A DNA stretch of 38,340 nt from Singulisphaera sp. GP187 (GTDB lineage Bacteria > Planctomycetota > GCA-002687715), in assembly GCA_945907755.1 (NCBI GenBank), contig CAMDTN010000024.1:1-38340 (forward strand). Reading direction: 5' to 3'. The translations under genes and the position numbers were made by a program. The notes under the pieces are model-generated. The model saw only the letters and a list, made by a program, of their open reading frames with translations, was not told the DNA's origin and did no database searches. Shown piece after piece: positions 3,501 to 25,396 of the stretch (positions are counted from its first letter, which is position 1; every line of letters begins with the position of its first letter).

Positions 3501-4415
3501 TCAGCGGGCGCGCACCATCACGCTGCGATGTTCCGCGAACATGCCGTCGCCTTCGATGGCGGCTAAGAAGCGGCCCGCGTCCTGTGGGTATCCCGCCGTG
3601 GGCTTCAACGCAGCGTGCCGCGACTGCCAAAATCGGTTGAACACATGCATCATCAACTCGCGCACATATTTCGCCAGAATGCTGGCGGCAGCGATTTCCG
3701 CAGCGCAGGATTCACCACCCACCAAGAATTGATACTGCAGTTGGTTGCGACCGCTGACCAGTGTGTAGCTGCTCGCATCCGCGCTTTCTGAAGAGCTCCC
3801 CGACGACCAGAACGGATGCTGCGCCGCGAGCCACTCGCCATAGTGACGGCGCCCTCCGAGGCGATCACAGAGCACAGTGCCGCGGGCGCGCACTGGCAAG
3901 TGCCTGCGCACCAATTCGCCTAACTGCACGAGTTCCAAGTCCGCTTTGTTGTGCCCTTGCTTGAGCCGCGCGTTGAAACTGCCTTCCAGCAACACATCAG
4001 CGCAAGCGGCACCCAAAGACAAATTCGCGCGCTTCAACCCGCGCCACAATGCGGCGGCTGCGCGATCCACATCCGCCGCATCCGCCACCAAAGGCAAACG
4101 CAATTCCAATTGCCCGTACCAAGGATGTGCCTTCAGTCCGTCGGGGCTGCACACCAACAACTCTTGCAAGTTGCGCGGCATGGCCGCACGCGCACAAGTG
4201 AGCAATGCGAGGGCACTGATTTCCAGCTCGCGCAGATTGCCGTGATAGATGCGCTTGCTGTCTTTCACTAACGGCGCGCTTGCACCTGCGAGTTCCAATG
4301 CTTGCGTGAGCCCACCCAAACCATCGACGCGCACCAAGCCCATCACAAAGGGCCCGAGCCTTGGGCCGTAGCCCGCTTCATCAACGCCGATGCGAAAACA
4401 GGAGGAATGATCCAA
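3501..4415 (-). CDS. Ribonuclease HII-like protein of planctomycete type
   Basis: A 304-residue protein, clearly longer than common RNase HII (about 200). The N-terminus reads GVDEAGYGPRLGP, the counterpart of the DEAGRGP catalytic motif, with Asp and Glu kept. LVKDSK (residues about 49-54) matches the L-DSK motif. A later CDRLGGRRHY segment supplies a further acidic residue, and AEIAAASILAKYVRE matches the conserved AAASI-AK--RD helix. RNase H removes RNA from RNA-DNA hybrids, including single ribonucleotides and primers. The DEAGYGP form is one I associate with Planctomycetes. The start is TTG at 4415, chosen because GGGGAG lies 8 bases upstream; the ORF has no better ATG. Middle residues about 110-200 are an expansion I cannot assign. 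Confidence 0.65.
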   Translation of the reverse strand: MDHSSCFRIGVDEAGYGPRLGPFVMGLVRVDGLGGLTQALELAGASAPLVKDSKRIYHGNLRELEISALALLTCARAAMPRNLQELLVCSPDGLKAHPWYGQLELRLPLVADAADVDRAAAALWRGLKRANLSLGAACADVLLEGSFNARLKQGHNKADLELVQLGELVRRHLPVRARGTVLCDRLGGRRHYGEWLAAQHPFWSSGSSSESADASSYTLVSGRNQLQYQFLVGGESCAAEIAAASILAKYVRELMMHVFNRFWQSRHAALKPTAGYPQDAGRFLAAIEGDGMFAEHRSVMVRAR

Positions 4416-4759: not shown

Positions 4760-6868
4760 TCAGCCGCCGAGATTCACAGCGACAGAAGCGCGCAGGGCGT
4801 TGAGCCACTGAGCGCGCAGTGCAGCATCCACAGGGGCGATGCCCGCTGCAGTCGCCACAGAAGCCTTCAATTCACCAGTGCAGCCAAGCAGGCCAGCGCC
4901 GATGACAGCGTTGGTGTCAGCGCAGGGGCTGCCGCCAGCGCGGGCGATGCGCGCCGCAGCAATGATGGCCGCGCCGCGGGCCGCGTCAGAAGCCGTCGCA
5001 TCGGCAAACACAGCGATGAGCGCCGGACGAGCAGCGGCATTGCCGATGTTGCCCAAGGTCTTCATGGCCGGGATGCGCACGCGGTCTTCGCCATTCACCG
5101 CAGCCAGCAGGGTTTCCCCAGCGGCAGCAGCAGCGGAGCCGGGCATGTGGGACAGGATGGCCGCGGCCATGGCCGCGCTGGCCGTGGCCGTTTCACGGGC
5201 TGCGTCCAAGGTCTTGAGCAAAGCGCGAACCTGAGGTTCGTAGGCCGCAGCCACCAGAGGCGTGGTCAGAACCAACTGCACCTTGGCACCGAACTGCTCT
5301 GTAGCCGTCGCCGCACCATTCTCGTCAGCGAGCAGCACCACCGGAGTTTCGGAAGTGCGGGAATCGCCACGCAGGGTCTTCACCACTTCGTGAGAAGTGC
5401 GGTCCTTCAAGTCGTAGCGCACGATGACCAAGTCTTCGACTGGCATTTGGCGCACCGCCGACAAACCCTGGCTGCCGCTGGCAATGCCGGTGGCCATGTA
5501 GCCACGAGCATTCAGCTCGGCAACCAATTGCAGGCGCGAGGCCTCTTGGTCGTCGATGACAACCACAGTGCGCAGCGCGTCTTGCGACAGCACTTCGGCG
5601 AGAGCCGCTACAAGAGTGGCGGAATCGGGGTAGCCGCCCATGCGGCCTAAGGCGATCGCCGCAGCGAGGCGCATTTCCTTGTTGTTGCCAGCAAGAGCCG
5701 CAGCAACGGCACAATCGCCGGTGCAAGCAGGAGCCATTGCCGAGAGCATGCGGATGGCCGCAGCGCCAACGCTGCCCCTGCCATCGTTCAGCGCCTTCGC
5801 CACCACGCCGTTCAGCACTTCCGCGCCGAGGGCCTTGGCCAAGGTGGATGCTTCAGCCGCGCCCGCAGCCTTCGCCGCTTCGTCAGCCGCCATGCCTGCC
5901 GCTGCATCCGCTTGTGCCACCAGCACCGAAGCCAGCAACACTTGCGTGTGAACCGACTCAGGAGCGTAGTTGAGCATGTCGTAGAGGATGTCTTCTGCGA
6001 GCTTCAGGTGATAGAGCGCTGCCGGCACTTCGCGCGCCACGAGCTTGCCCTCTTCCATGTTCCACACCGTGGTGCCATCAACAACAATGTTGCCATTGCG
6101 CTGGTAGTAACCCTCGGCCACCGCGAAGAAGAGCCCGCCGATCTCGGCTTGCGTCTCTGCCGCGGAACCCAAGCGGTTGCGAGCATCGATGCCCGCCTTC
6201 TTCACCATGACGCCAGCGCCTTCCGCCGGCATGGATGCCATCGCAGCCACATAAGGCAGTGCGCGCACATCGCCGCATTGACCAAGCAGTGTTAGGCAGT
6301 TCGCGACCACCAGCGGTGACCCCGAGTCCAACATCTGAATAAGCGGCATTGTGGCACGGCGCCCCATGCGACGGATCCATTCCATGGTGCCGGCGCGCAG
6401 GTCAGTGTCATCGCTGCCAAGACGGCGCGCGAGATAGGCCACGGCGTACTCGCCGTGATCAGCGGCGAGTTGCAGCGATGCCTTCTGGCGCACAGCCCAG
6501 TCAGGCGAATCCAGCTTCTCGACGAGACCCTTGATGGCTTCATCGTTGCTGGCCTGTGCCCGTTCGGCTGGAATGGCCAGACGGAACAAGTGCGACACCA
6601 CTGCTTGGTGTTGTTCGCCCTTGATCATGATGCGGGCCCACAGATCTTGTTCCACTGCATTGCGCAGTGACCATGCCTGTTCAGAAGACGGATCTGTCGC
6701 TAGGACAGCACGGAGCTTCTCAAGAGCCGCATCGTTCTGTCCGCGCTCATAGAGGTCGACGGCCTCCTTCAGCGTGGACTGCGCATCCTGAGCCACCGCA
6801 ACCGGTGTCAGGGCGCCAAACGATAGGGCGAACGCGGCAACAATCGAACAGAGTCCCCATAAGCGCAT
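4760..6868 (-). CDS. Exported HEAT-repeat protein with a degenerate receiver domain
   Basis: A 702-residue protein. Residues 1-26 are a signal peptide with an AVA-QD cleavage site. Residues about 30-65 look like a TPR unit. Residues about 105-220 and 380-430, and the region after 560, are alanine-rich HEAT-like helices. Residues about 432-555 read as a CheY-type receiver: VVVIDDQEAS keeps the acidic pair (D439, D440). The phospho-acceptor position aligns with R484, the Ser/Thr position with A514 and the conserved Lys with T536, so phosphorylation looks impossible. A receiver fold on an exported protein is also out of place. The start at 6868 is chosen because GGAG lies 9 bases upstream, the signal peptide begins there, and the earlier ATG at 6958 coincides with the promoter's expected transcription start. 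Probable scaffold or binding protein; function unknown. Confidence 0.75.
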   Translation of the reverse strand: MRLWGLCSIVAAFALSFGALTPVAVAQDAQSTLKEAVDLYERGQNDAALEKLRAVLATDPSSEQAWSLRNAVEQDLWARIMIKGEQHQAVVSHLFRLAIPAERAQASNDEAIKGLVEKLDSPDWAVRQKASLQLAADHGEYAVAYLARRLGSDDTDLRAGTMEWIRRMGRRATMPLIQMLDSGSPLVVANCLTLLGQCGDVRALPYVAAMASMPAEGAGVMVKKAGIDARNRLGSAAETQAEIGGLFFAVAEGYYQRNGNIVVDGTTVWNMEEGKLVAREVPAALYHLKLAEDILYDMLNYAPESVHTQVLLASVLVAQADAAAGMAADEAAKAAGAAEASTLAKALGAEVLNGVVAKALNDGRGSVGAAAIRMLSAMAPACTGDCAVAAALAGNNKEMRLAAAIALGRMGGYPDSATLVAALAEVLSQDALRTVVVIDDQEASRLQLVAELNARGYMATGIASGSQGLSAVRQMPVEDLVIVRYDLKDRTSHEVVKTLRGDSRTSETPVVLLADENGAATATEQFGAKVQLVLTTPLVAAAYEPQVRALLKTLDAARETATASAAMAAAILSHMPGSAAAAAGETLLAAVNGEDRVRIPAMKTLGNIGNAAARPALIAVFADATASDAARGAAIIAAARIARAGGSPCADTNAVIGAGLLGCTGELKASVATAAGIAPVDAALRAQWLNALRASVAVNLGG

Positions 6869-7057: not shown

Positions 7058-8209
7058 CTACAGCGCGATCTTGCCGAGCCCCGTCGGCCAACGTGCCCCC
7101 GTGGCGCGCGGGATGTTGGTGGCGGCACCCAGAACGCGCTCGTGCGCAAGGAGCGCGAAGAGCAGCGCCTCCTTGCTGTCAGGGTTGATTCCGTAGTCCG
7201 CCAGAGAAGTGACTGGCACTGGCAACATGCGTTGTTTCAGGCGCCGCATCAGCGCCAAGTTGTGCAGCCCTCCACCGCTGACGACCAACTCACGCACATC
7301 ACTCGGCTGCACTTCTTCCACCGCCGCGTGAATCGAGTCCGCAACAAACGCCGTGAGCGTGGCGAGGATGTCCACCAATGCCATGTGCGTTTCTTTGCAG
7401 AGCAAACTGTGAACGAAGACGGCACCGAAATCCTCTCTGCCCGTGGTCTTCGGCGGAGCGCGCAAGATGTAAGGATGGCGCAAGAGTCGCTCGAGCAGCA
7501 CCGCATCAACATGGCCTTGTTCGGCGAGACGGCCACCGGGGTCGTAAGTCTCGCTGCCGTTGGTGAGCTTCTCTGCAACCAAGTCCAGCGGCATGTTGGC
7601 GGGGCCCGTGTCGAAGGCGATGCAGTCTTCGATCTGTTCCGACACAACCGTGATGTTGGCGATACCACCAAGATTCAAACACACGGTGCCAGGGCGGTGG
7701 CGAAAGAGCATCCAATCGAGGAAAGGCATCAGCGGAGCACCCTGCCCTCCGGCAGCGGCGTCCCGTGCGCGAAAATCTCCCACCGTGATGATGCCCGTGC
7801 GTTCTGCAATGACGTCGATGTCGCCCAGTTGCAGCGTCGCGGTCGCCCTGCCGGAATCCGTAGCTGGATGATGCACGACTGTTTGCCCGTGCGATCCAAT
7901 CAAGTCCACCTCTTGAGCGCGCAGACCCGCTTTCGCCATGATGCCCTTCGCCGCGTCGGCGAAGGCAGCACCCAACTCGACATGCAAGTCTGCAGCCTCG
8001 GCCACGGACATGTCCGCAGCACGCAGCAAGCGCGCGCGCATGGCTGCCGGCCACGGCCGCTCGTCGCTTGCGATCACTTCGTGCGCGAGTTCCAGCCCTT
8101 GACCGCGGAAGCGCACCACGATGCTGTCGATAGCATCCGCCGAAGTGCCGCTGTTCAACCCGATGACCACGCGCTCCGGCTTAGTGCGCACTTGCAGCAA
8201 GCGTTCCAT
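7058..8209 (-). CDS. anmK: Anhydro-N-acetylmuramic acid kinase
   Basis: A 383-residue protein of the AnmK family, which phosphorylates and opens 1,6-anhydro-MurNAc during recycling of peptidoglycan in the cytoplasm. GLNSGTSADAIDSIVV near the N-terminus matches the GLMSGTS-DGID phosphate-binding loop, GSHGQTVVHHP follows in the middle, and AFDTGPANMPLD is the second family signature. Length fits the family (about 370). The start is uncertain: ATG at 8209 and GTG at 8215 are both possible and neither has a clear Shine-Dalgarno. I prefer the ATG, which has a TATTCT box 7 bases ahead. The gene is divergent from the NtrC-type regulator with a gap of about 50 bases, so the two promoters must overlap. 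Presence of the gene implies a peptidoglycan turnover product to recycle. Confidence 0.88.
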   Translation of the reverse strand: MERLLQVRTKPERVVIGLNSGTSADAIDSIVVRFRGQGLELAHEVIASDERPWPAAMRARLLRAADMSVAEAADLHVELGAAFADAAKGIMAKAGLRAQEVDLIGSHGQTVVHHPATDSGRATATLQLGDIDVIAERTGIITVGDFRARDAAAGGQGAPLMPFLDWMLFRHRPGTVCLNLGGIANITVVSEQIEDCIAFDTGPANMPLDLVAEKLTNGSETYDPGGRLAEQGHVDAVLLERLLRHPYILRAPPKTTGREDFGAVFVHSLLCKETHMALVDILATLTAFVADSIHAAVEEVQPSDVRELVVSGGGLHNLALMRRLKQRMLPVPVTSLADYGINPDSKEALLFALLAHERVLGAATNIPRATGARWPTGLGKIAL

Positions 8210-8258: not shown

Positions 8259-9614
8259 TTGGCCAGAATCCTAGTGATCGATGACGAAGCTTCGATCCGC
8301 AGCGCCGTGGAGATGATCCTGCGCTACGAAGGCCACGCTGTAGTTCTTGCGGCGGACGGTGCGGAGGGCTTGGCACAAGTGCGCGGCGACGACGCGCTCG
8401 ATGCCGTGCTTTGCGACATCAAGATGCCTGGAATGGATGGAATGGAAGTGCTGCAGGGCATTCATTCCCTGCGACCTCACCTGCCTGTGATCATGGTGTC
8501 CGGGCACGCCAGCATCAGCACGGCGGTCAGCGCCACCCGCGAAGGGGCTTGGGATTTCATCGAGAAGCCGCTGGACCGCGACCGTTTGTTGCTGGCGCTG
8601 CGCAACGCGTTGTCCAACCGAGAACTGGGACAAGCCACCGAGCGGCTCGCACGCGCTGCCATGGGGCGCAATGAAATCGTCGGCACCTCGCCGTGCATTC
8701 AAGCCCTGCGCTCTTTGATCGCCCGTGTTGCGGATAGCGATGCCCGCGTGCTCATCTCAGGCGAGAACGGCACTGGCAAGGAACTGGTTGCACAAAACTT
8801 GCACCTGCTGTCGCAACGCCGCGATCGCCCATTTGTCGATGTGAATTGCGCCGCCTTACCGGCCGAACTCATCGAGAACGAACTCTTTGGCCACGAGCGC
8901 GGTTCGTACACCGGGGCCGAGCAACGCCGCGCCGGAAAATTCGAACTCGCCCACGGCGGCACGCTGTTCTTGGACGAAGTGGCCGACATGCCGCTGCCAG
9001 CCCAGGCGAAAGTGTTGCGCGTGCTGGAAGAAGGCAAGCTCAACCGCATCGGTGGCGAACAGACCATCAACTTAGATTGCCGCGTGGTGGCGGCGTCGAA
9101 CAAGGACCTTCCGGCCGCAGTAGCAGCAGGGCGTTTCCGCGAAGATCTCTACTACCGCCTCGCCGTGGTGCCCATTCATGTGCCTCCGTTGCGCGAGCGC
9201 GGCGACGATGTGATCGAGTTATTCACGCGCTTCTTGACGCACTTCGCGAAGCGCGCGCAACGGAGCCCACCGCGCCCAAGTGTGGCTGCGTGCCGTTGGC
9301 TGGTGGCCCAACGCTGGCCCGGCAATGTGCGCGAACTGCGCAACCTCGCCGAGCGAACAGTGCTGCTGTGCAGTGGCGACAGCATCGGGGTGGAAGATTT
9401 CACTGCCGGCAAGCCCGTCGCCGAAGCGCCAGTCGAAGATGTTTTTTCTCTCGACAATTTCGAAGCATTCAAGGACAGCAGCGAGAAGCAGTGGCTGCTA
9501 CGCAAACTCCGCGAGAATGGCTGGAACATCAAACACACCGCCGAACTCCTCGGCATGCAACGCAGCAATCTCTACAAGAAATTGGAACACCATGGCATTC
9601 AACCTCCGCGCTAG
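8259..9614 (+). CDS. NtrC-family sigma-54-dependent response regulator
   Basis: A 451-residue transcription activator. Receiver domain 1-115: acidic pair D8-D9, phospho-acceptor D53 (LCDIKMPGMDG), S81 and K103, all intact. AAA+ domain about 138-375: Walker A GENGTGKE (168-175), sigma-54 contact loop GSYTGA (215-220; usual form GAFTGA), Walker B TLFLDE (235-240), and an arginine-rich LYYRLAVVPI segment. A Fis-type helix-turn-helix closes the protein (about 405-445, HTAELLGMQRSNLYKKL). This is an activator for RNA polymerase carrying sigma-54, closest to NtrC/NtrX. The start is TTG at 8259 with GGGAG 6 bases upstream; an ATG at 8121 would put about 46 unrelated residues before the receiver and overlap anmK. 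No histidine kinase gene is adjacent, so the signal is unknown. Confidence 0.88.
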   Translation: MARILVIDDEASIRSAVEMILRYEGHAVVLAADGAEGLAQVRGDDALDAVLCDIKMPGMDGMEVLQGIHSLRPHLPVIMVSGHASISTAVSATREGAWDFIEKPLDRDRLLLALRNALSNRELGQATERLARAAMGRNEIVGTSPCIQALRSLIARVADSDARVLISGENGTGKELVAQNLHLLSQRRDRPFVDVNCAALPAELIENELFGHERGSYTGAEQRRAGKFELAHGGTLFLDEVADMPLPAQAKVLRVLEEGKLNRIGGEQTINLDCRVVAASNKDLPAAVAAGRFREDLYYRLAVVPIHVPPLRERGDDVIELFTRFLTHFAKRAQRSPPRPSVAACRWLVAQRWPGNVRELRNLAERTVLLCSGDSIGVEDFTAGKPVAEAPVEDVFSLDNFEAFKDSSEKQWLLRKLRENGWNIKHTAELLGMQRSNLYKKLEHHGIQPPR

Positions 9615-10489: not shown

Positions 10490-11293
10490 TTACTTGGCGC
10501 GCGCGGGCAGCTTCAACTTCTGCCCGATCTTCAGCACATTGCCGTCCTTCAAACCGTTGAGCTTCACAATCTCGCTCACCAGTTTGACGGAGCCGCATTC
10601 GCGCTGCGCGATGAGCGCGAGTGCATCGCCCTTCTTGACGGTGTACTCGCGCGCAGCCGTTGGATTGACTGGTGCAACCACTGGCCCTTCGAGCACGCTC
10701 ACCGTCTTCACATCTTCGAAGGGACGCACTTCACTTGTGCCCGCGACCGGAGTCGCAGCGTTTGCAACAGTGCCAGCGTGCGCTGGCAGCTTCAACTTGC
10801 CGCCAACCTTCAAGCGCGCGTTGGTCGCGAGTCCGTTGGCTTCGCGAATTTCTTTGATGTAGCCATCGACTTCGCGCGCGCTCACTTCGCGCGCCGCGAT
10901 TTTCCACAAGCTGTCACCACTCTTGATGACAACTTCCTTCTGCGCAGCGGCAACTACAGACCCGGCGCCACTTGACGCAAGTGGACTCACAACAGGAGTC
11001 ACGAGCGGCTCGGTGCCAGGCGCAATGTTGACGGGTGCTGCCACCACATCAGCTACTGGCGCAACGACAGGGCTCACCACTGGCGCAGGAATGTCTTTGA
11101 CTTCAACCACCGCACTCGGAGTGGTGTTGTCGACATCGCGCACAGCAGAAAGCGCACTCGGCTCTTGTGGTGTCGGTTGCGTTGCAACGTCCACCTCAGG
11201 CTTGGTGTCACCACCGCCCAATAGAGCAACCATCAAGATCACACCCAAGAGGACCACTACGATCCCCACACCGGCCTTTTCAAGCTTCCCCAT
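10490..11293 (-). CDS. Membrane-anchored protein with two LysM domains
   Basis: A 267-residue protein. Residues 7-26 are one hydrophobic helix (signal anchor). A Pro/Val/Ala-rich linker fills about 30-118. LysM 1 lies at about 120-172 (VIKSGDSLWKIAAREV ... LKVGGKLKLPA) and LysM 2 at about 215-264 (YTVKKGDALALIAQREC ... LKIGQKLKLPA). LysM domains bind N-acetylglucosamine-containing glycans such as peptidoglycan; the protein probably tethers to the wall in the periplasm. No catalytic domain is present. The start at 11293 is chosen because GAGGTG lies just upstream and the promoter at 11349-11377 excludes the longer reading frame that opens at 11386. Confidence 0.82.
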   Translation of the reverse strand: MGKLEKAGVGIVVVLLGVILMVALLGGGDTKPEVDVATQPTPQEPSALSAVRDVDNTTPSAVVEVKDIPAPVVSPVVAPVADVVAAPVNIAPGTEPLVTPVVSPLASSGAGSVVAAAQKEVVIKSGDSLWKIAAREVSAREVDGYIKEIREANGLATNARLKVGGKLKLPAHAGTVANAATPVAGTSEVRPFEDVKTVSVLEGPVVAPVNPTAAREYTVKKGDALALIAQRECGSVKLVSEIVKLNGLKDGNVLKIGQKLKLPARAK

Positions 11294-11348
11294 GATGCAC
11301 CTCAGCTCGGCGTCCATCCGCCCCCGGACTTCACTGCAGAGCGCGCAA

Positions 11349-11377
11349 AATTTATGACTCTTTTGCACTTGCGTCAA
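11349..11377 (-). promoter_or_regulatory. Sigma-70-type promoter for the LysM gene
   Basis: On the minus strand, TTGACG (11372-11377) and TAAATT (11349-11354) are 17 bases apart, a good -35 and a fair -10. Transcription would begin near 11341 and leave a leader of about 48 bases. Confidence 0.55.
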
Positions 11378-11566
11378 CGGACACACCTCAAAATGTTGTG
11401 GCTCGCATCAGTGATCACCCCGGATGATGTGCTGTGTGCGCGCTCGCTGCTTCGACCACGCTAGGCTTCCAGTGTCGCCACGGATGGCTATCATGCGCAC
11501 GCGATCCAGCGTTGCGGACCTCGCGCACTCCTGCCCCGCAACAAGCCGGACGCACCAAGGGACCTC

Positions 11567-20581: not shown

Positions 20582-20629
20582 TTGACGCGCAGCGTCAACT
20601 TGAGCCGTTGACGCGCAGCGTCAACTTGA
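20582..20629. repeat. Two direct copies of a 22-base palindromic unit
   Basis: The 22-base unit begins at 20582 and again at 20608 (26-base period). Each holds TTGACGC and GCGTCAA around GCA, a 7-bp stem with a 3-base loop (20582-20598 and 20608-20624). The pair lies between the end of the gcv operon and the convergent GT4 gene, whose stop codon is inside the first copy. It may act as a bidirectional terminator. Confidence 0.6.
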
Positions 20630-21707
20630 TCAAACCCTCGACCACGCCCGCGGTGTGCTGACGGCTGGTCCACGCGGGCACGGCGATCATCGGCGCAGCA
20701 CTGCGCAACTTCTCGGCCAAAGCAACCACTGCCCCTGGTTCGAATAACTGCTCTCCTTGCAACCACTGCTTCAAGCCACCCGTTGCACTGGCCAAAAGCG
20801 GGCGCCCGCAGGCCAAGGCTTCAGCCGCAACCACCGGCGTTCCTTCTTCGCGTCCCAAGCGCCCGCGTCTGCTGGGAACTACGACAACACGGGCCGCACG
20901 CATGGCGGCTGCGACTTCTTCTGGTGGCAGCAAGCCCGGCAAGTGCAGTGGGACTTTCTCTTGCTCTGCCAATTGCACTAGTTTGCTGCGTTGCGGGCCC
21001 GCACCAATCAGCGCCACACGGTCTCCCGTCAGCGCCGCTGCGCGCAAAATGACATCGAAACCCTTCAGCGTTTCAAAGCGCCCTACGCCTAAAACAGCGT
21101 CACTGCAATCGGCCCGCAACGCGCCAGTGCTACAGAATATGTGCTCGTCGACGCCCATAGGCGTGCAGCGCACAGGCACAGGGCCCAAGACGCGCTCGAT
21201 CATTCCGGCGCGTGGCTCGCGTGCGCAAAGCAGCGCAGCGATTTTGCCGCGCAGCCGCAGCGCGTGCATGCGACCCAACAAGGGCAGCGCCATTTGGTGC
21301 AAGTCGCCGCCATGGCCGATGCCGATGACGGGGCGTTCGCAGCGCGCCGGCAAGGCCCAGCCACAGGGAACCATCCAGTGCAGCAAGAGCGCATCGTGCC
21401 GGGGCAGTTCGCGTTCTAGGGCGCTGCGCGCGACACGCAACCAACGCCATAGTTGTGCGATGCGCCACGGGCGCTGCAACAACTCTGCTTCCAGCCCCCG
21501 TTGGTAGAAAATCGGCTCGACGGCACCGGGGCGTAATACAAGCCCAGCTTCATCCTGCGATTCTGCTGCAACACCTGCCGCCGCTGGAGCGATGGTCACC
21601 ACTTGATGTCCGCGCTGCGCCAAGCCCACATGGAGGTCGCGCACAAAGCGCCCGCAATAGTCGCCCGCGTGGCGCGGATAAGAGCTGGTTAGTGCGAGCA
21701 AACGCAT
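20595..21707 (-). CDS. Glycosyltransferase family 4 (GT-B fold)
   Basis: A 370-residue protein. The N-terminus MRLLALTSSYPRHAGDYCGRFV is the usual beginning of GT4 enzymes. HGGDLHQMALPLLGRMHALRL, PMGVDEHIF, VLGVGRFETLKGFDVILRA and the donor-site pair EEGTPVVAAEALA fit the family. It adds a sugar from a nucleotide donor to a lipid- or glycan-linked acceptor at the cytoplasmic face; substrate unknown. The ATG at 21707 is 19 bases inside the upstream GT2 gene. The last residues (LIKLTLRVNGSS) come from the repeat at 20582-20629. Confidence 0.85.
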   Translation of the reverse strand: MRLLALTSSYPRHAGDYCGRFVRDLHVGLAQRGHQVVTIAPAAAGVAAESQDEAGLVLRPGAVEPIFYQRGLEAELLQRPWRIAQLWRWLRVARSALERELPRHDALLLHWMVPCGWALPARCERPVIGIGHGGDLHQMALPLLGRMHALRLRGKIAALLCAREPRAGMIERVLGPVPVRCTPMGVDEHIFCSTGALRADCSDAVLGVGRFETLKGFDVILRAAALTGDRVALIGAGPQRSKLVQLAEQEKVPLHLPGLLPPEEVAAAMRAARVVVVPSRRGRLGREEGTPVVAAEALACGRPLLASATGGLKQWLQGEQLFEPGAVVALAEKLRSAAPMIAVPAWTSRQHTAGVVEGLIKLTLRVNGSS

Positions 21708-22600
21708 GGCGCTTGCAGGCAGCGTAGCGAATCCAAGAGCAAGGCAGCAACTGCGCAACTCACCCCGACCAAGAACAGCGGCCCCGCAGTGCCGGTGGCC
21801 GCAACAGCCGCGGCAATGCTGCCGCCAAAGGCTGCGCAGGCCGCAGCCCACAGCCCGCGCAGCATCCAGCCATGCGCAGAGCATGCGCCGGTGCGGCGCC
21901 AAAAACCGCGCACTAATAGAGCCGCGATGCGCGGTGCCACCCGCAGCACGCGAATCTTCGAACGCTCTTCGGCATACACAGCACGCACAGGCACATCGGC
22001 GACGCGTCCCTGCGCTAAGGCCACATGCAGCAACATGTCGTTGGGGAAACCGTAGCGCGGGTAAAGCTCGTCCAGCGCGATGCGCGCAAGCACCGCGCGG
22101 GTGCTGGCGGTGTAGCCGCATTGGCTGTCGGCTACATGCCATAGCCCTGTGCTGACACGAGTCCCGATGGTCAGGCCAACATTTCCAAACCAGCGCAATG
22201 CGGGCATGGCCTGCCGCGCTGCCGCAGTGGCGAAGCGGTTGCCTTTGGCGTAGTCGGCACCATCATTGATGGCGGCGATCAAGCCCTTCAAGTCGGCAGG
22301 ATCCATTTGATTATCCCCAGCCATCACAACGCACACCGCGCGCGCATCAGCGCAGTGCGCAAGAAAATGCTGATACCCAGTGACAATGGACGCCCCCACG
22401 CCACGGTTCGCAGCATGGCACACCAACTCCGTGCGAGCACACGCACTAGCACGCACGCTTGCTGCCGTGCCGTCAGTCGAGGCGTCGTCCACCACCACGA
22501 TGTGATCGACTTCTTGGGGCACACCGCGCACCACTGTCGCCACGAGAAGTTCTTCCTGAAACGCCGGGATAACAACCCACACCGTGCGTCCGGCGATCAC
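21689..22600 (-). CDS. Glycosyltransferase family 2, dolichyl-phosphate-mannose-synthase-like
   Basis: A 303-residue protein. WVVIPAFQEELLVATVVRGVP and IVVVDDASTDGTA are the GT-A nucleotide-sugar site; MAGDNQMDPAD is the metal-binding acid motif, and GNRFATAAARQAMP follows. The last 60 residues include hydrophobic helices (two segments from about 245 onward), suggesting membrane association. Likely uses a nucleotide sugar to glycosylate a polyprenyl phosphate or lipid. The start is GTG, overlapping the flippase stop by 4 bases. Substrate unknown. Confidence 0.85.
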   Translation of the reverse strand: MIAGRTVWVVIPAFQEELLVATVVRGVPQEVDHIVVVDDASTDGTAASVRASACARTELVCHAANRGVGASIVTGYQHFLAHCADARAVCVVMAGDNQMDPADLKGLIAAINDGADYAKGNRFATAAARQAMPALRWFGNVGLTIGTRVSTGLWHVADSQCGYTASTRAVLARIALDELYPRYGFPNDMLLHVALAQGRVADVPVRAVYAEERSKIRVLRVAPRIAALLVRGFWRRTGACSAHGWMLRGLWAAACAAFGGSIAAAVAATGTAGPLFLVGVSCAVAALLLDSLRCLQAPCVCSH

Positions 22601-24138
22601 CGCTGTTTACGCCCCAACATGCGCGCGAGTTTTTCGCGGTCTTCACGGCCGAATTCGCCCAAGAGCACCAACGCCGCCAGCATGCTGCCGCCGCAAGCGC
22701 AAAACCGCAGCACGGTGCCCAGCAATCCAGCGCTGGGAATGACATGTGCCAAGGCCGCAACCGCCGCAGCAGCCAGCGCAACACGCACGACAGTGGCCAG
22801 CGGCAAGACATTGCCGAAGCGACGTCCGACGCACACAAACGCAGCAGCGCAGCCAGCCAACATGGCGATGCAACCAGCCATGCCCTGCCCCGCCAGCCCG
22901 AAACGCGGCAGCAGCAACATGCTGAGCACTAATTGCACGCCAGCCACGCCCAAGGCCAGCACGACGCTCCACACCGCGGCGCCAGCGGCGTTCAAGGTGG
23001 AGCACAGCAAGAAGAACAAGGCGAAGCCCACATAGCCCGCGCCCAACCACGACAATCCCGAAGCAGCGTCAGGGTGTTGCGCCAAGTGCGCGGCGCTGTC
23101 TTTCAACAACAAGCCGAGCGTTGGTTCTGGCCGCGCCACCAACACCACCGTAGTGGTTGCGACGATGATCAAAGCCCAACGCAATGCTTCGCGCACATAG
23201 CGCCGTGTCTGTTCGGTGGCCGCAGCAGCAGTGGCGGAGACCAGCGGAAAAAGCACCAAGGTGACGGCAATCACCAACGAGTAAGGGATCTGCGCGAAAA
23301 GCTGCGTCGCACTGTACAGCGCGCGGGCGCTGTCTCTGGCCGCGCCGGAACAATCGAGGAACCACTGCACATACCAGAGGTCCATCTGCACCAACCACTG
23401 CACAGCCATCATGAATGCAACAGTTTGCACCTGATAGCCCAAGAATTCGCCGACGCGCGGCGCCGGCGCTGCAACGCAATCTTGGCGCGCCAGCACGCGC
23501 CTGCTGGCAAACCACGCAGCGATCAACACGAACAGCGCCGAGGCAGCAAAACCTGCGTAGGCACCAGCGGCCGTGCCGGTGATCCAGATTCCAAGACACA
23601 CCAGCACCACCTTGGCCGTAGTGAACGAACCATCCACTGCTGCTTGCAACGAGAAAGCGCGCGCGCCATTCAAGATGCCTAAGAGCACTGCGTAAAGGCT
23701 GTAGATCAATGGAATTGTCGCCGACACGCGCAGGGGTTGCACCAACGCAGCATCATCGCCAGCGATCCATGGGGCCGCAAACCAGTACAACGCCGAGAGG
23801 CTTCCTCCCAGCGCAAGCTGCAACCACAGCACACGCCCGCGCAACGCACGAGCGCATCCGGGATTTGCACCCACATAGCGCGACACAGCCTGCGTTGTGC
23901 CCTGCACCAACACCGTGCTCAAAATGGACAGCCACGCACCAGCGGCTTTGAACTGGCCCAAGATCGAATCACCATCGGTGGCCAAGCGCGGAATGGCGAA
24001 GTAAATGGCATAGCTGGCCGCGAGGAACCACAGTTTGGTGCCCGTGAGCAGCAGCCCGCCCCTCGCAATCTTGGCGGCTTCGTTGGCTGAATTGGTTTGG
24101 CTCATGGTTGGGCGGCAGCAGCCGCGGGGCGGGAGCAT
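22597..24138 (-). CDS. Oligosaccharide flippase (Wzx/MOP superfamily)
   Basis: A 513-residue polytopic protein with about 12-14 hydrophobic segments, typical of MOP-superfamily lipid-linked oligosaccharide flippases. The N-terminal GLLLTGTKLWFLAASYAIYFAIPR and the central VQWLVQMDLWYVQWFLD segments sit in the expected helix arrangement. It would carry the glycan made by the two glycosyltransferases across the inner membrane. I chose ATG at 24138 because GAGGG lies 7 bases upstream; an ATG at 24105 gives a shorter N-terminus with no clear Shine-Dalgarno. It is the first gene of the operon and divergent from the rlmI-like gene. Confidence 0.78.
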   Translation of the reverse strand: MLPPRGCCRPTMSQTNSANEAAKIARGGLLLTGTKLWFLAASYAIYFAIPRLATDGDSILGQFKAAGAWLSILSTVLVQGTTQAVSRYVGANPGCARALRGRVLWLQLALGGSLSALYWFAAPWIAGDDAALVQPLRVSATIPLIYSLYAVLLGILNGARAFSLQAAVDGSFTTAKVVLVCLGIWITGTAAGAYAGFAASALFVLIAAWFASRRVLARQDCVAAPAPRVGEFLGYQVQTVAFMMAVQWLVQMDLWYVQWFLDCSGAARDSARALYSATQLFAQIPYSLVIAVTLVLFPLVSATAAAATEQTRRYVREALRWALIIVATTTVVLVARPEPTLGLLLKDSAAHLAQHPDAASGLSWLGAGYVGFALFFLLCSTLNAAGAAVWSVVLALGVAGVQLVLSMLLLPRFGLAGQGMAGCIAMLAGCAAAFVCVGRRFGNVLPLATVVRVALAAAAVAALAHVIPSAGLLGTVLRFCACGGSMLAALVLLGEFGREDREKLARMLGRKQR

Positions 24139-24178
24139 ATCACTGCCCTCACAGCGCAGGCTGTTACAACACTGCGCT

Positions 24179-25396
24179 ATGCGCCAGACGCGACCCACAC
24201 ACAGGCCTCCCGAAGAAGTGCAATTCCCAGCGGGCATGCCGCCGGAAGGCGTGCTGCTGCGCGTGCCGCGCATGCCCGAAGGCCAATGGGTGTACCGCAA
24301 GATGCTGCGCACGCCGCGCATCACTGTGCAAAACGGCAGCTACCTGCCGCTGTATGCGAAGGATGGTCAGTTGTTGGCACGCGGGTTTCTGAACCGCCAA
24401 AGCGAATTGGCATTCCGCATCCTTGGCGATGCCTCTGCCCCTGCAGAATTCGGCGCAATGCTGGAACAGCGTTTGCGCCCAGCTTGGAACTTGCGCCACC
24501 ATGTCCTGCGCCTCCACGAACGCACCGACGCGTGGCGTGTGGTGCATGCTGAAGGCGACCACCTGAGCGGACTTGTTGTGGACCGTTACGGGGCCACCTG
24601 CGTGGCATCGCTCTACTCCATCGGCTGGGTTGCGCACGCCGAAGCATTAGAGCGCGCGTTGCTCGGGTTGCCCGGTGTGCGCCGCGTTCTCTTCCGCGCC
24701 GATGAACGCGCCGCAAAGCTCGAAGGCTTCAGCATGCCCCCGATGCCCGCAGGCGCCACCGAGCAAGTGCTCGAAGACGGTCTGCGCTACGAAGTGGACT
24801 TGAGCGAAGGGCACAAGACTGGTTTGTTCTTGGACCAACGCGACCACCGCCGCCGCTGCGCCAGCTTGGCTGCTGGAAAGCGCGTGTTGGATATTTGCAC
24901 CAATGCCGGCGGTTTCGCATTGTCGGCCGCCAAAGCAGGCGCGAGCAGCGTCACCGCTATTGATCTTGATGAGGTTGCACTGGCACGAGCCACTGCCAAT
25001 GCGCGGCGCAACAAGCTTCAGGTGGAATGGATCCACAGCGATCTTTTCCCGTGGCTGCGCAGCGCCCGCGAGCGCAAACTCAGTTACGACTTGGTCATTT
25101 TGGATCCAGCGAAACTCGCGCGCTCCCGCGAAGAAGTGCCCAAGGCGTTGGATACGTACTGCGACATGAACGCTTTGGCGTTGCGCGTGGTGGCCCCAGG
25201 CGGATTGTTCTTGACCTGTTCGTGCAGCGGCTCGGTGCGTGAAGACGAGTTCTTGAACATGCTGCGCCACGCTGCGAATGGCGCGGGCCGCGTGGTGCAA
25301 GTCTTGGAGATTGGTGGCGCTGCACCGGACCATCCCATGGCACTCGATGTGCCCGAAACCCGCTACCTCAAGGCGGCCCTGTGCTTGGTGCGCTGA
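24179..25396 (+). CDS. Class I SAM-dependent rRNA methyltransferase, RlmI-like
   Basis: A 405-residue protein. The N-terminus carries a PUA-like region (about 20-75). VVDRYGATCVASLYS and the FLDQRDHRRRCASL segment precede the SAM site DICTNAGGFALSAAKAG (about 240-256). LDPAKLARSREEV and TCSCSGSV match the catalytic region of RlmI, which makes m5C in 23S rRNA. The usual DPP is DPA here. Start at ATG 24179 has no Shine-Dalgarno, but TACAAC lies 8 bases upstream, so it may be leaderless. It overlaps the next gene by 16 bases. Confidence 0.8.
   Translation: MRQTRPTHRPPEEVQFPAGMPPEGVLLRVPRMPEGQWVYRKMLRTPRITVQNGSYLPLYAKDGQLLARGFLNRQSELAFRILGDASAPAEFGAMLEQRLRPAWNLRHHVLRLHERTDAWRVVHAEGDHLSGLVVDRYGATCVASLYSIGWVAHAEALERALLGLPGVRRVLFRADERAAKLEGFSMPPMPAGATEQVLEDGLRYEVDLSEGHKTGLFLDQRDHRRRCASLAAGKRVLDICTNAGGFALSAAKAGASSVTAIDLDEVALARATANARRNKLQVEWIHSDLFPWLRSARERKLSYDLVILDPAKLARSREEVPKALDTYCDMNALALRVVAPGGLFLTCSCSGSVREDEFLNMLRHAANGAGRVVQVLEIGGAAPDHPMALDVPETRYLKAALCLVR

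Follow-up and report, generated by a model that had tools for sequence, protein, structure and literature searches.

The window, by which we mean the whole 38,340-nucleotide stretch of planctomycete DNA analyzed here, carries on its minus strand a gene for a 702-amino-acid protein in which a receiver domain is inserted into a HEAT-repeat solenoid behind an apparent signal peptide (Table 1). Its reading frame runs from an ATG at 6868 to position 4760. A longer, TTG-initiated frame reaching 6958 is unlikely to mark the start, since relatives begin where this ATG does, with N-termini reading MRKWG, MLKWG, MLKRG and MTQRG at the matching place. The solenoid forms the bulk of the protein and places it among HEAT-repeat proteins (Pfam HEAT_2, 50.7 bits against a curated cut-off of 27.7), but the inserted receiver is foreign to the HEAT_2 family. 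An AlphaFold2 model of the whole protein, made with six orthologues, shows a solenoid into which a (beta-alpha)5 unit is set at residues 433-550. A search of the genome contigs with the whole protein returned a near relative as its only match, and a plasmid search with the same 702-residue query gave no match.

Table 1. Features of the locus, in window coordinates
Feature	Position	Strand	Basis
Gene for the 702-aa signal peptide-TPR-HEAT-pseudo-receiver-HEAT protein	4760..6868	-	Translation, Pfam, orthologues sharing the start
Putative signal peptide, residues 1-26 (MRLWGLCSIVAAFALSFGALTPVAVA), AVA cleavage motif	6791..6868	-	Read directly; scan of homologues
N-terminal TPR-like helices, residues 29-71	6656..6784	-	Weak Pfam TPR match at residues 33-67; helices in model
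HEAT solenoid preceding the receiver, residues 109-428	5585..6544	-	HEAT_2, E 2.3e-13; modelled helical repeats; Foldseek HEAT/ARM matches
Pseudo-receiver domain, residues 432-555	5204..5575	-	Pfam, predicted structure, Foldseek
Acidic pair Asp439-Asp440 (GAC GAC)	5549..5554	-	Codons read; alignment to canonical receivers
Arg484 (CGC), phospho-acceptor position	5417..5419	-	Arg in 27/90 homologues, 6/6 of the window's order
DxRT motif of the family, residues 502-505, in the loop leading to strand 4	5354..5365	-	D502 75/90, R504 77/90, T505 61/90
Ala514, conserved Ser/Thr position	5327..5329	-	Alignment to canonical receivers
Thr536, conserved Lys position	5261..5263	-	Alignment to canonical receivers
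HEAT helices C-terminal to the receiver, residues 556-702	4763..5203	-	HEAT_PBS and HEAT_2 matches, model
anmK, anhydro-N-acetylmuramic acid kinase	7058..8209	-	Directly upstream of the HEAT-receiver gene; NCBIfam 431.9 bits, over cut-off
NtrC-type sigma-54 response regulator, intact receiver, likely TTG start at 8259	8259..9614	+	Divergent from anmK; Pfam, NCBIfam

A preliminary description of this DNA, made by eye, had proposed a CheY-like segment at about residues 432-555, and both sequence searches and structure prediction bear this out. Pfam Response_reg (PF00072) matches residues 435-535 at 27.3 bits (E 4.4e-6) in a scan of the protein against all of Pfam, short of the curated threshold of 30.2, and at 31.1 bits, just above it, in a scan of the genome; phmmer against the PDB retrieves PleD and RpaA at about 1e-6. 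Since Foldseek with the whole-protein model matched mostly HEAT/ARM proteins, the receiver was folded alone. In the AlphaFold2 prediction from a 57-sequence alignment (pLDDT 88.7, pTM 0.84), five strands alternate cleanly with five helices to give the complete (beta-alpha)5 receiver fold. Foldseek against the PDB gave 535 matches at E<=0.001, led by RpaA (E 1.8e-9, TM 0.86) and followed by CheY- and PhoB-type receivers, the best 50 of the 535 being almost all receivers. On the combined strength of the sequence matches and the predicted fold, we assign residues 432-555 as a receiver. RpaA, about 30% identical over the domain, and PleD are its nearest solved structures by fold and sequence; unlike the domain described here, both belong to cytoplasmic regulators that work through phosphorylation.

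The residues that carry out receiver chemistry are largely gone. As a reference we took 29 canonical receivers from the loci of relatives in the window's order, all of which (29/29) align Asp to positions 440 and 484, Thr or Ser to 514 and Lys to 536, so the register originally set by eye is right. In this register the protein keeps the metal-binding acidic pair (D439, D440) and lacks the phospho-Asp, Ser/Thr and Lys of a functional phospho-receiver, having R484, A514 and T536 in their place; the true phosphorylation site is thus occupied by Arg and not by an overlooked Asp. A receiver fold without one or more catalytic residues is what a review calls a pseudo-receiver or aspartate-less receiver (PMC12632262), and the domain falls within that definition.

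The same description had placed this domain outside the cytoplasm, and the N-terminus does read, by inspection, as a classical signal peptide, MRLWGLCSIVAAFALSFGALTPVAVA followed by QDA. A crude script found a signal-peptide-like start in 86/90 homologues versus 2/23 AnmK proteins and 1/29 canonical response regulators in the same scan, in which the truncated gene L005 was a spurious positive and L052 and L074 were positive by eye. The 702-residue protein is thus a strong candidate for export. L005 is one half of a gene that in genome G001 is split over two contigs, C86 and C44 (L007 and L005), so that its halves appear as separate matches.

Orthologues are present in six of the 12 genomes of the window's order, and a six-sequence profile matches 273 of 392 sampled Planctomycetota genomes at E<=1e-12, although the weaker of these matches may reflect HEAT repeats alone. 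A search for the HEAT-plus-receiver layout beyond this genome, suggested at the outset, yielded an alignment of 90 homologues from 44 planctomycete families, as counted by family codes; one aligned sequence, L092, has no receiver segment. Because TPR-HEAT-receiver-HEAT homologues span 44 families, the altered receiver is not a one-off case of decay.

Across this family the phospho-Asp position is occupied by Arg (27), Ser (21), Ala (14), Asp (10), Asn (7), Gly (4) and a few others, and all six homologues of the window's own order have Arg. The first Asp of the pair is acidic in about 72/90 sequences and the second in about 27/90. A script run over the alignment flagged a single row, L081, as complete, despite Ser at the second acidic position, so that none of the 90 homologues holds all five canonical catalytic residues; L081, with D, T and K in place, comes nearest to a working receiver and offers a useful contrast to the catalytically depleted members. 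Given the ten acceptor Asp residues and the KP motif kept by some homologues, a phosphorylation role may persist in some members. On an unrooted tree of 88 rows built without the receiver columns, the distinction between Asp and non-Asp at 484 requires at least eight changes, and residue identity there a minimum of 32. The acceptor Asp thus appears to have been lost or regained several times, the unrooted tree giving no direction. An association between Arg484 and the acidic pair, significant over the 88 rows (Fisher p 0.002), was set aside, as phylogenetically independent pairs give it no support.

In place of the catalytic set, the family shares a fingerprint of its own, consisting of R433, LxD489, DxRT at 502-505 and F/Y526. 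DxRT is rare among canonical receivers of the same order, and D489 and F/Y526, each found in 46/57 sequences of the set used for modelling, are near-absent from them. Among the 90 homologues D479 is conserved in 87, R433 in 78 and P509 in 69; D479 is not family-specific, being found also in 25/29 canonical receivers. In the strand order of the AlphaFold2 model, R433, D479 and residues 502-505 come where strands 1, 3 and 4 begin, a topology that would put them at the edge of the sheet that lies across from the phosphorylation pocket, and because of this position we infer that they may dock against the solenoid or a partner.

Estimates of omega between close relatives are 0.083, 0.187 and 0.172 within the domain and 0.109, 0.233 and 0.136 outside it, values that are rough at the high dS of 1.1-1.7. 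The domain is under purifying selection similar to that on the rest of the protein, with no sign of relaxed constraint. A catalytically depleted receiver fold that is under purifying selection and common to a whole family with an export signal argues for reuse rather than decay, and the early suggestion that the receiver had been reused as a module is thereby favored.

The phylum-wide layout and the gene neighborhood were not part of the preliminary description and emerged in the follow-up. In 23 of the 90 loci anmK is the immediate or almost immediate upstream neighbor on the same strand, and it never takes another arrangement; where the stretch available for a locus was cut short, anmK would have gone unseen. 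A divergent NtrC-type sigma-54 regulator lies upstream in nine more loci from distant planctomycete families, while at L101 the match is downstream instead, and within the window's order receivers occupy the places matching 8259-9614 in G001, G003, G004 and G005. No convincing sigma-54 promoter was found on either strand between anmK and the NtrC-type regulator. It is conceivable, if doubtful, that this linkage ties the family to peptidoglycan recycling or its regulation; the evidence for an envelope role is indirect, since the linkage concerns a minority of loci and AnmK is itself cytoplasmic.

Other neighbors were considered as parts of the unit and dropped. A ribonuclease HII-like gene (3501-4415, minus strand), well below NCBIfam cut-offs and with a divergent middle part, adjoins the HEAT-receiver gene in only 4/90 loci, namely in close relatives and in L022. 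A LysM-domain protein is encoded near anmK (10490-11386, minus strand), and in the scan of 90 loci a LysM gene lies upstream of anmK in only two (L076 and L082). Farther away, a MurJ-like flippase (22597-24324, minus strand; 47 bits) lies beside a glycosyltransferase at 20595-22142; the two possibly form an exopolysaccharide locus.

Taken together, these observations lead us to favor, as the probable explanation, a phosphorylation-independent pseudo-receiver fixed within an exported alpha-solenoid, where it serves as a docking or structural module. The signal peptide would export the HEAT-receiver protein, which is predicted to form an alpha-solenoid of TPR followed by HEAT repeats, the pseudo-receiver being inserted between HEAT helices; having kept the receiver fold and lost the phosphorylation chemistry, the module would work independently of phosphorylation, and its conserved non-catalytic residues would either fix it in place on the solenoid or engage a periplasmic partner. 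Docking or structural support is the simplest role to propose for a solenoid that carries such a constant set of non-catalytic residues and is, on this reading, exported. The computed support comprises the receiver fold, the family-wide loss of the catalytic set, purifying selection, the fingerprint, the phylum-wide distribution and the linkage to anmK. The weakest step is a role in envelope or peptidoglycan turnover, which we put forward only tentatively. We regard as improbable the more ambitious proposal that these phylum-wide extracytoplasmic pseudo-receivers sense cell-wall turnover in the periplasm, or act there as adaptors for it, and are expressed beside anmK and the divergent NtrC-type regulator.

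Several other readings have to be weighed against docking. The domain could be a ligand sensor, binding a periplasmic small molecule or cell-wall fragment and relaying the change to a partner through the HEAT solenoid. Ligand binding is an established mode of control in pseudo-receivers, with ShkA and c-di-GMP, or CikA and KaiA with quinones, as examples in PMC12632262, and the linkage to anmK and the divergent NtrC-type regulator would suit a pathway that senses turnover. However, the analysis turned up no signature of a ligand pocket, the residue at the former active-site position differs widely (R, S, A, N, G, D), and the ligands known for pseudo-receivers are cytoplasmic or membrane molecules, all of which makes a sensor unlikely. 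Less likely again is that the receiver was captured once and is now an inert spacer of the solenoid, kept because its removal would disrupt folding: free drift of the catalytic positions, with at least 32 residue changes at 484 on the tree of 88, is what such a relic would show, but purifying selection equal to that on the HEAT part, near-invariant non-catalytic residues and retention in 44 families point the other way.

It is also possible to imagine that some members are still phosphorylated, either before export or by staying in the cytoplasm. An acceptor Asp in 10/90 homologues, Lys in some, the D, T and K of L081 (which lacks the second acidic residue) and the residual activity that substituted receivers can keep (PMC12632262) speak for this idea. 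Yet the acceptor is Arg in the window's protein and in all its order-level relatives, the complete five-residue set occurs in 0/90 and an export signal in 86/90, so that we hold a working receiver to be very improbable.

Receivers are a textbook cytoplasmic phosphorylation module. Like published aspartate-less receivers and pseudo-receivers, the domain described here has a sequence-recognizable receiver fold in which the phospho-Asp and other catalytic residues are replaced (PMC4395418, PMC12632262), and, as is reported for pseudo-receivers, the second acidic residue is lost more often than the first. The planctomycete family differs in its setting, with the domain embedded among HEAT repeats and preceded by an export signal. 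The Arg-rich acceptor position is, on present alignments, also unusual, because in the published aspartate-less set, as given in PMC4395418, the Asp is replaced most often by Glu (26%) and seldom by Arg (about 2%, 63/2,976), whereas Arg accounts for 30% (27/90) here and Glu is absent among the residues tabulated for the family.

Pseudo-receivers are described in PMC12632262 as acting by constitutive activity, protein contacts or ligand binding, and their working mode in bacteria as largely unknown. The same review presents those of ShkA, CikA and KaiA as phosphorylation-independent receiver folds that serve binding, as we propose here; these are parts of cytoplasmic signaling or clock proteins that bind c-di-GMP, quinones or KaiB, and none is described as exported, unlike the planctomycete family with its export signal. 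The periplasm, signal peptides and Planctomycetes go unmentioned in the available text of that review. A literature search for planctomycete HEAT proteins or periplasmic receivers, at the level of titles and abstracts and with most subscription journals outside its coverage, did not find the family. Therefore, while pseudo-receivers as such are known, the phylum-wide, apparently exported TPR-HEAT-receiver-HEAT layout appears to be new. Distributed over a phylum, bearing an export signal and stripped of most catalytic residues, the family would provide a natural set for probing receiver function without phosphorylation. It also gives a lead that can be tested for a protein common among planctomycetes.

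The window's own genome also encodes a second degenerate receiver (L008:1501-1941, corresponding to G000:C17:7582-8022), in a 324-amino-acid reading frame. A GGDEF-like region without the GGDEF motif follows this receiver, which, read by eye, has D-F for the acidic pair and Glu, Ile and Arg in the phospho-Asp, Ser/Thr and Lys positions, respectively.
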